Source of the DNA: Methylocystis sp. Sn-Cys
GTDB taxonomy: Bacteria > Pseudomonadota > Alphaproteobacteria > Rhizobiales > Beijerinckiaceae
Length of the DNA stretch: 64,000 nt
Direction: 5' to 3'
NCBI RefSeq assembly: GCF_016745395.1
Contig: NZ_JAERVJ010000006.1
Span: 1-64,000, forward strand
The position numbers and the translations under genes are program-made. A model generated the notes under the pieces. It had not been told where the DNA came from. It was given only the letters and a program-made list of their open reading frames with translations, and searched no databases. This document shows, one piece after another, positions 1,606 to 18,275 of the stretch (its first letter is position 1; the number at the start of each line of letters is the position of its first letter).

Positions 1606-2948
1606 CCTGCCCTTTTTCGCTCCCGCGCTGTTTTCCCAGCCTTTCCGCGCAGCAGCGCCATCAGCACTGGCCCGAGGGAGAATTCCCCTGCCCGCGCCTT
1701 GGCCGTCAAAACGCGCAAATAGCCGCCTGCAGATTTGATTTCATCGCCCCGCTGAAGGATCGCGGCGATGACGATCGCGGCGTCATGCTCGCCCAAAACA
1801 TCGAGCGCCTGCGACCAGGCGTCTGGCGAAACGCCTAAGGCCGACCGCACGATGGCCGACGCGTCCACCAAGTCGCGCCAACAAGAAATCTCACCGCCCT
1901 TGGCGTAATCGACGATGTCCGGGCAGGCTTGCAGCACCATTCCGAGCGGGTAAGCGCGCGGCGCGACGGCGGCACGGGCTTCGAGTTTAGGATCGGGTAG
2001 CTTTCCTCCCAAATCTCCTGCCCTATCGCCTTCCGTGTCTTCGACGATTGGCCCGAGCGGTTCGGCCCTGCCTTCTCGAAGGCGAGGTTCAAGATCAGAA
2101 ATGTTTGTGGTTTGATTCTGTATGTGGCGCTCAGTCTGAGACTCATTGCCGCTTGTTTTTTGGCGTTTCACATGGGTTTCCAGATCGTTAGTGATTTCCC
2201 CGGCAAGCTCCGCCAGTTCCGTAGCCAAAGCCTCCAACCCTGCCCGCGTCATCTTGCGCGCCAAGCGGCCGGAAAGCGCTCGATAATCGCCGTGGCGGGC
2301 CTCCCAATCGCCGGGAACGCCCTCCGCAATGCCGGTCTCGATCATCTTGACGATGTCGCGCCGAGTGAGCGTGATTTTTTCGCGCAACAGGGCCATGGCG
2401 CGGTTCTCCGCGCGCACCTCTTCGGCGAGATTTTCGATTTCGTTGGCGCGTGCAATCAACGGCGTCAGGTCGAAACCGAAGGACTCCTCTATCGCGCCGC
2501 CTTCCCCGCGTCTCGCGAACCGTTTTCCGTTAGGCGAGTCGCGCCGGATGATCAGGCCTGCCTCTACGAGCGACGCAAGATGCCGCCGCAGAGTCGCCGG
2601 CGCCATGCCGTGGGCGCGGATCGAAAGTTCTTTGTTGGAGGGGAAAACGACGACGCCAGGCGCGAGGGGAACAATCCCCTCCTCCGCAGCGGTCTTCGTA
2701 CCGCCCTTGGACAGAGTCAGCGCGGTTTCCTGGTGGAAGCTCAGCAGGGCATGAAGCACCGACAGCGCGCGATCAGTGACGCCGAGCGGGCTCTTAGCTT
2801 CTGTGAGTGAGCGAAACAGCCGCCATTTATGGACAGCCGTCTCCGATGCGTCGGGTTGGGCGACAAAATCCCGTGTCGCCGCTTGCGCCGCCACCATGGC
2901 AAGCGACAACGATCGCCGCCCAAAGGGCGTCGTTGAATATGTGCGCAT
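1602..2948 (-). CDS. repC: Replication initiator RepC
   Basis: RepC starts replication of repABC plasmids and in this family usually binds an origin inside its own coding sequence. From the chosen ATG the protein has 448 residues and begins MRTYSTTPFGRRSLSLA, a typical RepC start. A GTG at 3002 would add 18 residues, but they do not look family-like and the ATG has a GAAGAGG-type ribosome binding site. The N-terminal half contains a winged-helix region (SNKELSIRAHGMAPATLRRHL about residues 115-135); the C-terminal part is more variable, as usual. It is last of repA-repB-repC, separated from repB by about 190 bases that hold a hairpin over the ribosome binding site and a candidate antisense RNA, the usual copy-number control of the family. 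Confidence 0.93.
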   Translation of the reverse strand: MRTYSTTPFGRRSLSLAMVAAQAATRDFVAQPDASETAVHKWRLFRSLTEAKSPLGVTDRALSVLHALLSFHQETALTLSKGGTKTAAEEGIVPLAPGVVVFPSNKELSIRAHGMAPATLRRHLASLVEAGLIIRRDSPNGKRFARRGEGGAIEESFGFDLTPLIARANEIENLAEEVRAENRAMALLREKITLTRRDIVKMIETGIAEGVPGDWEARHGDYRALSGRLARKMTRAGLEALATELAELAGEITNDLETHVKRQKTSGNESQTERHIQNQTTNISDLEPRLREGRAEPLGPIVEDTEGDRAGDLGGKLPDPKLEARAAVAPRAYPLGMVLQACPDIVDYAKGGEISCWRDLVDASAIVRSALGVSPDAWSQALDVLGEHDAAIVIAAILQRGDEIKSAGGYLRVLTAKARAGEFSLGPVLMALLRGKAGKTARERKRAG

Positions 2949-2951
2949 GCT

Positions 2952-2973
2952 CTTTTGCCTCTTCAGGCAAAAG
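2952..2973 (-). promoter_or_regulatory. Hairpin covering the repC ribosome binding site
   Basis: On the minus-strand transcript CTTTTGCCT pairs perfectly with AGGCAAAAG across a 4-base loop (9 bp stem). The AGG of the repC ribosome binding site lies in the 3' arm, only 3 bases before the ATG. In repABC plasmids the repC leader folds into a structure that hides the start region when the counter-transcribed RNA is bound; this stem fits that role. The pairing is seen directly; the regulatory role is inferred from the family. Confidence 0.6.
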
Positions 2974-3002
2974 AAATCAGCTCGCCGAAACGGCGCCGAC
3001 AC

Positions 3003-3115
3003 TTGACAGCGATTCGCGGAAGTGGGATTCTCTAGGTGCTACTCTATGAGAAGGGCTTCCGGGCGGTGACGTTTCGGGGGCCTTTTTCTTTTGCTGGTTC
3101 CTTTTCTTTCCTGAT
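3003..3115 (+). ncRNA. Candidate counter-transcribed RNA (incA-type) between repB and repC
   Basis: repABC replicons carry a small antisense RNA gene in the repB-repC gap, transcribed opposite to the operon, that inhibits repC expression and sets incompatibility. Here the gap holds a perfect TTGACA (3003-3008) on the plus strand, with a weak -10 about 17-18 bases later, and a GC-rich stretch running into T-rich sequence (GGGGGCCTTTTTCTTTT, about 3076-3092) as a possible terminator. Ends are approximate; the call rests mainly on position and the -35 match. Confidence 0.45.
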
Positions 3116-16585: not shown

Positions 16586-17692
16586 CTAGATCTTGAAGCG
16601 CAGCGCCAGCCCCGCTTGCCACGCTTTCGATAGCTGAGGGCCGTTTAGATTCTGATAGACCGGCAGCCCGGCTTCGATTGCAAGAAGGACATTTTCATAC
16701 CCCACCAATTTGCCGCTGATCGTCGCGCCGCCAAAGAGCTCCACGCGCTGGCCGCCATAGAAATTCGGATTCGCCGCCTGCGCCTTTCCAGCGATGTTCC
16801 AGTCGAAGCCTCGGATTGGGCCTTCGAGGCTGCCTGTCACGCGAAATGTCGTCGTCACGCCGGGGATCCAGCTATATCCGCCCCACCCGGTAAATTCGTG
16901 GAGATCGCCCCACCGATAGCCTTCCGGATTTGCGGCCAGCGGAAAACGCCCGCGATAAGACAGGCCCCAGGACCAATTATTCAGTTGGCCGGCGTAAACG
17001 ACGCCGGGCATTGCGTCGAATGTCCCCGTCCCGATCTGCATTGCATAAAAGGCGCGCGTCGTTGCGTAGGTTCCGTTCGGTTGCAACAAGGTAAATGTGT
17101 TGTGGTTGCTCCCGGTCGGGAACGACATGCCGACATTGACCTGCACGCGATTGATGTGATCTTCATAAACGCGCCAGATCGCTGACGCCGTTGTATCCGA
17201 TATGCTGTCGGTTCCCGTGTAGCTCATGCCGAGAGGCGTAATCCCGCTCAGTCCCTTGAAGGTGAGAAAACTGAGATTTTTTTCAGTCATGCCCGTCCCG
17301 ACAACGATCGAGAGAACTTTCGTCACGCCATAGGCCAATTGGACGGTCTGAACCGCTTGAAGAGCGCTTTGCGGCACGCCGCGCAATTTTTGCCGCGGGT
17401 CGAAAAACCAAGGCGTCGTCGCGACAATCTCCTGCGAGGAGACAGGGCGCGCGCCTTCGAGCGACGTCGACCGTCCGAGGAACTGCGGGACGATCGACAA
17501 AATCAGCTTACCGGCTGGCGGCATGTCGGCGCCGAAGACCCCAAGCGGCGCCGGCGCCAAGGGTTGCGGCGGCAAGGGTTGCGGCGGCGGGGTCACCTCG
17601 CTTTTCGGCGCGCCATCCGCCCAGGCGCCAGACGCGGCGAGGCAGAGCATAAAAAGGGCGTTGCCGATTCTGCTCATCGTTCTCTTGCTCAT
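16586..17692 (-). CDS. Outer-membrane channel-like protein of the nasTS operon
   Basis: From the ATG preceded by GGGGGAG at good spacing, a 368-residue protein with a signal peptide (RIGNALFMLCLAASGAWAD), a Pro-rich linker (PPPQPLPPQPLAPAPL) and a long alternating-polarity region ending in Phe-Lys-Ile, typical of an outer-membrane beta-barrel. It resembles the MetA-pathway phenol-degradation transporter-like porins, but I cannot place it exactly. It lies 111 bases upstream of nasT on the same strand, behind a leader with an ANTAR-type antiterminator motif, so it should be induced by nitrate. A role in letting nitrate or nitrite through the outer membrane is inference. Confidence 0.75.
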   Translation of the reverse strand: MSKRTMSRIGNALFMLCLAASGAWADGAPKSEVTPPPQPLPPQPLAPAPLGVFGADMPPAGKLILSIVPQFLGRSTSLEGARPVSSQEIVATTPWFFDPRQKLRGVPQSALQAVQTVQLAYGVTKVLSIVVGTGMTEKNLSFLTFKGLSGITPLGMSYTGTDSISDTTASAIWRVYEDHINRVQVNVGMSFPTGSNHNTFTLLQPNGTYATTRAFYAMQIGTGTFDAMPGVVYAGQLNNWSWGLSYRGRFPLAANPEGYRWGDLHEFTGWGGYSWIPGVTTTFRVTGSLEGPIRGFDWNIAGKAQAANPNFYGGQRVELFGGATISGKLVGYENVLLAIEAGLPVYQNLNGPQLSKAWQAGLALRFKI

Positions 17693-17747
17693 ATCTCCCC
17701 CTCGCTCCTTCAGCTCGACGCGCGCGAAAGAGCGGCTCGCTGAAAAC

Positions 17748-17808
17748 AAAAAAACGCCGCTGCCCAGAACCGCCGCACGGTTGCGGCAAGTTCTGGAGCA
17801 GCGGCGTT
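17748..17808 (-). terminator. Intrinsic terminator in the channel-nasT-nasS leader
   Basis: The minus-strand transcript forms a long interrupted stem: AACGCCGCTGC pairs with GCAGCGGCGTT (11 bp), then CCAGAAC with GTTCTGG (7 bp) after a one-base bulge, then GCCGC with GCGGC (5 bp), followed by seven U residues (17754-17748). It lies about 55 bases upstream of the channel gene's ATG, inside its leader, where it would stop transcription before the operon unless antiterminated. Confidence 0.85.
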
Positions 17809-17829
17809 GCTGCGTGACCCATCATTGGG
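17798..17829 (-). promoter_or_regulatory. NasT-binding tandem hexaloop antiterminator
   Basis: Two hairpins precede the terminator on the minus-strand transcript. P1 is CCC-AATGAT-GGG (17829-17818). After a 4-base linker, P2 is GCAGC-AACGCC-GCTGC (17813-17798). Both loops are hexamers with A at position 1 and G at position 4, the ANTAR recognition signature. P2 shares 11 bases with the 5' arm of the terminator, so only one can form: bound NasT would hold P2 and let transcription into the channel-nasT-nasS genes. The stem of P1 is only 3 bp. Confidence 0.75.
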
Positions 17830-18275
17830 AGCTGGCGCCAAAGTCGGCGCATCTGGCGTGGGAGAATGCAAAGGGCGAGCCAAATGAAGACAGGGACGCG
17901 TTATCCCATGGCGCTAACTGATTGCGGGGCACCGCTGATTTTGCCCAGTTTAAGGCTGAGTATTTTGGAGGCGGCCATGTCTGCAAACTAAGCAAGCAGC
18001 ACGCCGGTCGCACTAATATGAGGCGGATTGAATAGTGCAGAACCTCTGTGCCCGCGGAGCGTAGGCCGAAGCGCGGCGCCGATTTCCTGCCCGAGGCGAT
18101 GGCTTCACCGCCGAGCGGCGACGCTTCTAACAGCTCAGCTCGAGGACAGGATCCGAGGAAGGTCGCAGCTCTTCACGCGACCGACCAAGCGTCGCTGTCG
18201 GAACTCGATGAACTGGGAATTGTTGAGACATGTGCTGCGTTCGGAGGACGCAGGGGTTCGCTGCGGGAGGCCCAC

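Follow-up and report, generated by a model that had tools for sequence, protein, structure and literature searches.

A P1/P2 model of antitermination by ANTAR proteins has been set out (PMC3369931, PMC3369936), and the same papers describe an amidase operon that encodes its own AmiR. For nitrate assimilation, work on Paracoccus reports that NasS and NasT dissociate with nitrate and that NasT binds the nasA leader (PMC3795266), that NtrC controls nasTS and that the nasA leader has hairpins (PMC5424462). NasT targets are also described in Bradyrhizobium (PMC6759348).

We examined a locus within a 64,000-nt stretch of DNA from Methylocystis sp. Sn-Cys (the window; positions 1 to 64,000 of NZ_JAERVJ010000006.1). 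Like the nasA leader region of Paracoccus denitrificans, this locus has NasT, NasS, leader hairpins before assimilation genes and nitrogen control. In P. denitrificans, nasTS is upstream of the leader and has its own NtrC site, whereas in the window the leader (leader 1) is upstream of nasTS and a gene for an outer-membrane barrel comes first. The amiE leader/AmiC/AmiR system of Pseudomonas aeruginosa (PMC3369936) is closer in one respect, as the operon whose leader the antiterminator opens also encodes this antiterminator and its sensor, and feedback through AmiR would presumably occur in that operon. The principle of an ANTAR regulator inside its own operon is therefore already known. The P. 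aeruginosa system senses amides and serves a catabolic operon, whereas the window combines nitrate, a sigma54-type promoter and an outer-membrane barrel. The Klebsiella nasF leader (NasR; PMC3369936) shares with the window P1 and P2 hairpins with A1/G4 loops and an overlap with the terminator; NasR is a one-component nitrate sensor, whereas the window has the NasS-NasT pair. An account of a NasT leader ahead of nasT was not recognised in the accessible parts of open-licence PMC papers and may be in print elsewhere.

Results

Genes and setting of the locus

The window lies on a contig of 266,763 bases (C17) in a genome of 4.02 Mb. On the basis of Rfam matches to ctRNA_p42d and S-element at 2946-3094 and of neighbouring Par/Rep-like frames recognised by eye, the replicon was taken as a repABC plasmid. 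The segment 14742-18050 shared 98.2% identity with plasmid pSS37A-Re-1 from Methylocystis iwaonis. The minus-strand order was leader 1, the barrel gene, nasT, nasS, nirB, nirD, a nitrate reductase gene and an MFS transporter gene (Table 1), and the original prediction that genes for a channel-like barrel, NasT and NasS follow the leader in that order was borne out. The genome search for ANTAR proteins gave a single place, that of NasT. The nasT and nasS genes overlap by ATGA, NasS appeared by eye to have no signal peptide, and its relatives are annotated as members of the CmpA/NrtA family. The nitrate reductase scored 409.9 bits against the NasC model, under the cut-off of 1100, and is annotated as nitrate reductase in M. 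iwaonis.

Table 1. Features of the leader 1 and nirB region, in minus-strand order (window coordinates)
Feature	Position	Strand	Basis or detail
sigma54-type -24/-12 promoter of leader 1, TGGCTCGCCCTTTGCA	17882-17867	minus	sequence; ends 37 bases before P1
P1 hairpin	17829-17818	minus	CCC 17829-17827, loop AATGAT 17826-17821, GGG 17820-17818; A1 and G4
P2 antiterminator hairpin	17813-17798	minus	GCAGC 17813-17809, loop AACGCC 17808-17803, GCTGC 17802-17798
Intrinsic terminator	17808-17748	minus	5' arm starts with P2 loop and P2 3' arm; T7 17754-17748
Outer-membrane beta-barrel, probable channel, 368 aa	17692-16586	minus	AlphaFold and fold match
nasT, ANTAR response regulator	16474-15902	minus	Pfam ANTAR E 2.3e-19; also Response_reg
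nasS, NrtA-like sensor	15905-14742	minus	Pfam NMT1_2 E 3.9e-75 (longer ORF)
sigma54-type promoter of nirB unit, TGGCCCGCTTCCTGCA	14583-14568	minus	sequence
Leader 2, structured RNA before nirB	14556-14406	minus	sequence and alignment
nirB, nitrite reductase large subunit	14378-11898	minus	NCBIfam TIGR02374, 914 bits
nirD	11888-11550	minus	NCBIfam TIGR02378, 106.4 bits
Nitrate reductase catalytic subunit, probably assimilatory	11539-8834	minus	Pfam Molybdopterin and Fer2_BFD
NarK-type MFS transporter	8837-7575	minus	TIGR00886, 231.9 bits, under cut-off 311.7

Leader 1 and its promoter

Two hexaloop hairpins, with loops AATGAT and AACGCC and A1/G4 in both, had been predicted and could be read directly on the minus strand at 17829-17748. 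The predicted sharing of 11 bases between P2 and the 5' arm of the terminator was exact, and consisted of the P2 loop and 3' arm (17808-17798). As read from the sequence, the 5' arm of the terminator runs AACGCCGCTGC-t-CCAGAAC from 17808 and the 3' arm ends at about 17753. A strong terminator after the hairpins was also confirmed, since the whole leader folded into this structure (-62.4 kcal/mol, z of -5.63, 0 of 200 shuffles as good). Both alternative folds were thereby recovered, with the whole leader giving the terminator and a leader cut before the terminator 3' arm giving P1 and P2. The features of an ANTAR leader were present, namely two A1/G4 hexaloops, a P2 hairpin overlapping a U-tract terminator and a conserved P1 helix of only 3 bp in the window. 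The P1 stem consists here of three G-C pairs, compared to the 4 to 6 listed for other leaders (5 or 6 in most), and RNAfold draws it in the window as CCCA[AUGA]UGGG.

Rfam 15, searched both at the gathering threshold and by E value, yielded no relevant match to leader 1; only chance-level matches were obtained for 17600-18100, and no ANTAR-leader family was named. A generic terminator scan did not list the leader 1 terminator because it accepts only unbroken stems closed by a short loop. In place of a published family we used a covariance model, R1, built from 27 leaders with the window leader among the seeds. In its own genome R1 gave one match of 79.9 bits and an antisense echo of 21.2 bits at the same place, and leader 1 was the sole convincing classical leader detected by R1 in this genome. 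A Methylocystis leader outside the seeds (G011) scored 68 bits.

Of 32 leader entries, 29 had the motif TGGC-N7-TTGC at 20-75 nt ahead of the P1 loop, compared to about 0.01 expected per entry from the rate in the fetched regions (87 TGGC-N7-[CT]TGC in 506,093 bases), and the looser form TGG[CA]-N8-TGC was present ahead of all 32. A sigma70-type scan detected no site on the minus strand between 16474 and 17749, and overall gave 3 sites against 3.1 expected. As the sigma70 scan performed at chance level and the generic terminator scan missed the leader 1 terminator, both carry little weight.

Conservation of leader 1 in Methylocystis

The NasT and barrel proteins were searched for in 39 genomes of the genus, and 33 regions (506,093 bases) were fetched. 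These regions held 34 nasT copies, and a barrel gene lay at most 1.3 kb upstream of 31 of them. The 31 barrel-nasT units include the window and M. iwaonis (one species), a broken nasT copy (L094) and a broken barrel gene (L068). Three units (L072, L080 and L089) run off the contig before the leader position and were left out; a leader was present ahead of the barrel gene in all 28 testable units, 27 being detected by pattern and one (G011) by R1. A pattern scan of the 33 regions for P1, P2 and a terminator found 46 candidates on the strand of nasT and 20 on the opposite strand. Requiring a minimum of 7 paired bases and of 7 T within 10 bases left 32 and 0, respectively.

Compensatory changes were examined in an alignment of 27 leaders, four of them nrtA leaders. 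The P1 helix was 96.1% paired with two-sided changes in three of five pairs, P1 and P2 together were 97.9% paired, and the terminator helix was 92.1% paired with two-sided changes in 8 of 16 pairs. Eight of the nine outer terminator pairs were formed in every leader and the remaining one in 26 of 27. For P1 plus the terminator, 93.0% of cells were paired and 52 two-sided changes were counted, compared to 18.1 in shuffled alignments and no more than 18 when the structure was slid. The inner four pairs of P2 were invariant in 27/27 and its loop followed A[AT][CT]GCC; invariance is expected of these bases, which must serve two helices, and covariation is therefore neutral on P2. A1 and G4 were found in both loops of all 27 leaders while the remaining loop positions varied. 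A chance origin of leader 1 was rejected on the basis of the covariation, the R1 matches and the 32-to-0 strand count.

Two further observations were made in the genus. An R1-like leader of 43 bits at L149 4117-4214 (G005) lies ~450 nt ahead of an MFS-transporter-like frame, and matches of similar strength in several Methylocystis genomes perhaps mark a further NasT target. In L094 a single contig carries two copies of nasT, of which the second is disrupted by a stop codon and a shift of frame.

The outer-membrane barrel

Searches with the barrel protein yielded 0 Pfam families at an E value of 1, 0 NCBIfam families and no credible PDB sequence match. An AlphaFold model (22 sequences) gave a beta barrel with a pLDDT of 78.2 and a pTM of 0.74, residues 1-53 being poorly modelled. 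The best PDB fold match was 4rl8, a 12-stranded COG4313 channel (E 2.7e-12, TM of 0.73 by target and 0.54 by query), followed by FapF. This channel, Pput2725, is like the window barrel in fold and unlike it in sequence (13% identity). Hence the predicted "outer-membrane channel" was upheld by fold similarity, while a family-profile match to COG4313 was absent from the Pfam and NCBIfam searches. The authors of the structure consider it unlikely that Pput2725 transports hydrophilic molecules (PMC4493636), and the modelled likeness thus leaves a nitrate pore as an unproven guess.

Public records call relatives of the barrel "alpha-amylase" (L001 8374-9465; L002 8019-8960), which the predicted fold contradicts. 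A paralogue lies directly ahead of feoB on a Methylosinus plasmid (L003 8001-8981), which suggests a more general family of ion or solute channels. In L066, L075 and L093 the barrel frame before nasT is ~270 residues longer (frames of 644-780 aa), and the extension resembles another outer-membrane protein by eye. Longer barrel-nasT gaps in L067, L081 and L090 seemingly hold, again by eye, a short frame ending in a VKIVDALLD-like peptide.

Arrangement of leader and nasTS in other genomes

At an E value of 0.01, R1 matched in 36 of the 149 genomes of the family. Twenty regions were examined, and in 13 the order was nasT-nasS-leader-nitrate genes. Three Methylosinus regions (L134-L136) had a leader and barrel gene with nasT absent from the 14 kb fetched, one Methylosinus region had leader-barrel-nasT-nasS-nirB as in the window, and the other three, all from Methylocystis, differed. 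The named Methylosinus Sm6 has barrel-nasT-nasS-nirB with the leader upstream. In the Methylosinus units L137 and L166, which have the window-like layout, P2 has a weaker stem of about 2 bp (CGC[..]GCTG), and this reduced pairing counts against the simple reading.

Across 397 genomes of the order, R1 gave 70 hits, all of which could be placed. Sixty-one followed a nasT gene of the same orientation, 60 of them within 4.9 kb and one at 64.7 kb. Two hits, both in Methylocystis, lay at most 2 kb upstream of nasT and one lay 10.4 kb upstream; of the rest, one had no nasT on its contig and five were in genomes without a NasT match. R1 was built on Methylocystis leaders and matched in 66 genomes, compared to NasT in 187 of 397, and many leaders may therefore escape it. 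Within the reach of R1, these results agreed with the claim that the layout is not the standard one, as the leader usually follows nasTS in the order. The leader-barrel-nasTS layout has so far been seen, in the sequences searched, only in Methylocystis and Methylosinus.

In two genomes (G017 and G018) the barrel gene has a leader and is not beside nasT, and a nasT copy has neither a barrel gene nor a leader ahead of it. As the barrel gene has a leader also away from nasT, nasTS appear to come under the leader by adjacency, and the most economical history would have a barrel gene already under NasT control landing directly ahead of nasTS.

A second RNA element before nirB

Leader 2 sits at the expected start of its sigma54-type site, within the nasS-nirB gap (14742-14378). 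It comprises the hairpins GGTC[AACGAC]GACC (14556-14543), CCGG[TCCG]CCGG (middle, 14541-14530) and GCGCCC[AACGAT]GGGCTC (14525-14508), and the distal elements GGTCGTC (14459-14453) and CGGACCG (14412-14406). Two A1/G4-type hexaloops thus flank the middle hairpin. The first hairpin and the middle one each have a conserved distant segment as an alternative pairing partner. Nothing in Rfam matched better than chance. In 20 sequences, including the window, the nested structure was 97.5% paired with 11 two-sided changes compared to 1.6 in shuffled alignments, while the alternative pairing GACGACC/GGTCGTC was 98.6% paired and hardly varied. Across 18 sequences the stems showed 14 two-sided changes versus 4.3; the first loop had A1/G4 in 18/18, and the second had G4 in 18/18 and A1 in 15/18, with G1 in the other three. 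A loose sigma54-form site starts 26-27 nt before the GGTC hairpin in all 24 pattern-found copies. Neither reading of the sequence nor a scan of limited sensitivity revealed a U-run terminator in the nasS-nirB gap, and hence none that overlaps P2 was seen.

The distribution of leader 2 was examined with a model, R2, whose matches below about 30 bits were taken as noise because 78 of the 149 family genomes match at an E value of 0.01. Leader 2 was also found before nirB in G011, in a Methylosinus (G140) and in a further genus (G094, 30.9 bits), and before an NrtA-like gene in six genomes of another family, f28 (29.9-40.6 bits). An R2 match of 31.8 bits was noted in G028. Among 12 genomes, those designated G089, G357, G383 and G482 were rejected, as they had no nas or nir neighbour beyond a 34% nrtC-like match at G089. 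When 336 further genomes of the class were searched with a broader model, R3, no convincing copy of leader 2 emerged; the two R3 matches, of 30.1 and 25.9 bits, were discarded because neither locus had a nas or nir gene match. In L070 the 5' part of leader 2 occurs in tandem (9887 and 9987, oriented), 100 bases apart, with N between the copies, and is possibly an assembly artefact.

Relation of nasTS to leader 1

A NasT-responsive antitermination leader heading a barrel-nasT-nasS operon, with NasT under its own control, is the reading of leader 1 that we consider probable on the sequence evidence. The original prediction that nasTS control themselves together with the barrel gene is supported by the anatomy of the leader, the cognate protein, its position and comparative genomics, and we infer both co-transcription and NasT dependence. 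It is scarcely credible that leader 1 is an ordinary attenuator or upstream terminator unconnected to NasT, with coincidental hexaloops. Such an element would accord with the lack of confirmation by a public ANTAR model and with the short P1, but not with A1/G4 being constant in both loops of 27/27 leaders among otherwise variable loop positions, with the one-sided strand count (32 versus 0) or with the occurrence of such leaders beside nas, nrt and nir genes throughout the family.

Leader 1 could instead control the barrel gene only, with nasTS on its own weak constitutive promoter and feedback negligible. We regard this as improbable. Leader 1 is 1,274 nt from nasT, and the barrel-nasT gap measures 112 nt in the window and 88-114 nt in 20 of 31 units. 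Within this gap, 29 of 31 units had no uninterrupted terminator hairpin and 31 of 31 had no sigma54 site. As the hairpin scan would miss interrupted stems, a T-tract scan (5 T in 8) was added, which recovered 37 of 37 P2-motif leaders as a positive control and detected no tract in 22 of 31 gaps, that of the window included. These data, and the presence of the barrel gene ahead of 31 of 34 nasT copies, argue against control of the barrel gene only. In its favour, NasT is needed before induction, and the barrel gene has a leader without an adjoining nasT in L134-L136, G017 and G018. Among the nine gaps with a T tract, L094 and L095 also have a terminator-like hairpin and L088 has a strong stem followed by TTTTCTCA, which may be a terminator; self-control would therefore not be universal in Methylocystis. 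A separate promoter inside the barrel gene or in the 112-nt gap is possible. As no terminator is visible between the barrel gene and nasT in the window, transcription of nasTS there should pass through the switch, and NasT should act back on its own synthesis.

A single long transcript from leader 1 through nirB, nirD, the nitrate reductase and the transporter, with leader 1 as the master switch, also has to be weighed. All the genes are on one strand, and no terminator was listed on the minus strand at 14742-14378, by a scan that also missed leader 1's own terminator. On the other hand, immediately ahead of nirB lie leader 2 and a separate conserved sigma54-type site, and we consider the long transcript somewhat unlikely. 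Read-through from leader 1 to nirB and separate control of nirB can coexist.

Discussion

Control of nasTS by leader 1 would operate as follows. When ammonium is short, the sigma54 promoter, presumably activated by NtrC, would start transcripts at about 17856. Without nitrate, NasS would hold NasT, the terminator would fold and most transcripts would end before the barrel gene. In the presence of nitrate or nitrite, NasS would release NasT, and the ANTAR dimer would bind the A1/G4 hexaloops of P1 and P2 and hold P2. P2, once held, would withhold 11 bases of the terminator 5' arm, and the polymerase would read into the barrel gene, nasT and nasS. NasT would thus exert positive feedback, seeded by basal read-through and damped by the NasS made with it. 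The barrel would be induced together with NasT and NasS, presumably as an entry route for nitrate or a similar solute. In this scheme we infer that NasT binds the leader, that nitrate elicits the response, that the genes share a transcript, that feedback occurs and what the barrel transports. Judged from the sequences compared, the position of leader 1 is unusual, conserved in the clade and probably self-amplifying.

Leader 2 looks like an ANTAR dual hairpin into which a further hairpin has been inserted, and its output would lie elsewhere, in translation, in Rho action or in a long-range switch. In actinobacteria, some ANTAR targets are known to affect translation (PMC8164766). Tentatively, and with a little less than even confidence, we suggest that NasT uses two RNA designs, a classical P1/P2-terminator leader through which nasTS would amplify itself and a three-hairpin RNA before nirB. 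If so, leader 2 would be a new type of ANTAR target that switches without a U-run terminator, found so far in Methylocystis and Methylosinus, in a third genus of their family and in a second family of the order.

The arrangement would place a nitrate sensor and its antiterminator in their own feedback loop across a methane-oxidising genus. Such feedback predicts an amplified or history-dependent induction by nitrate. It would also tie an uncharacterised outer-membrane barrel to the use of nitrate, and leader 2 may widen the definition of an ANTAR target.
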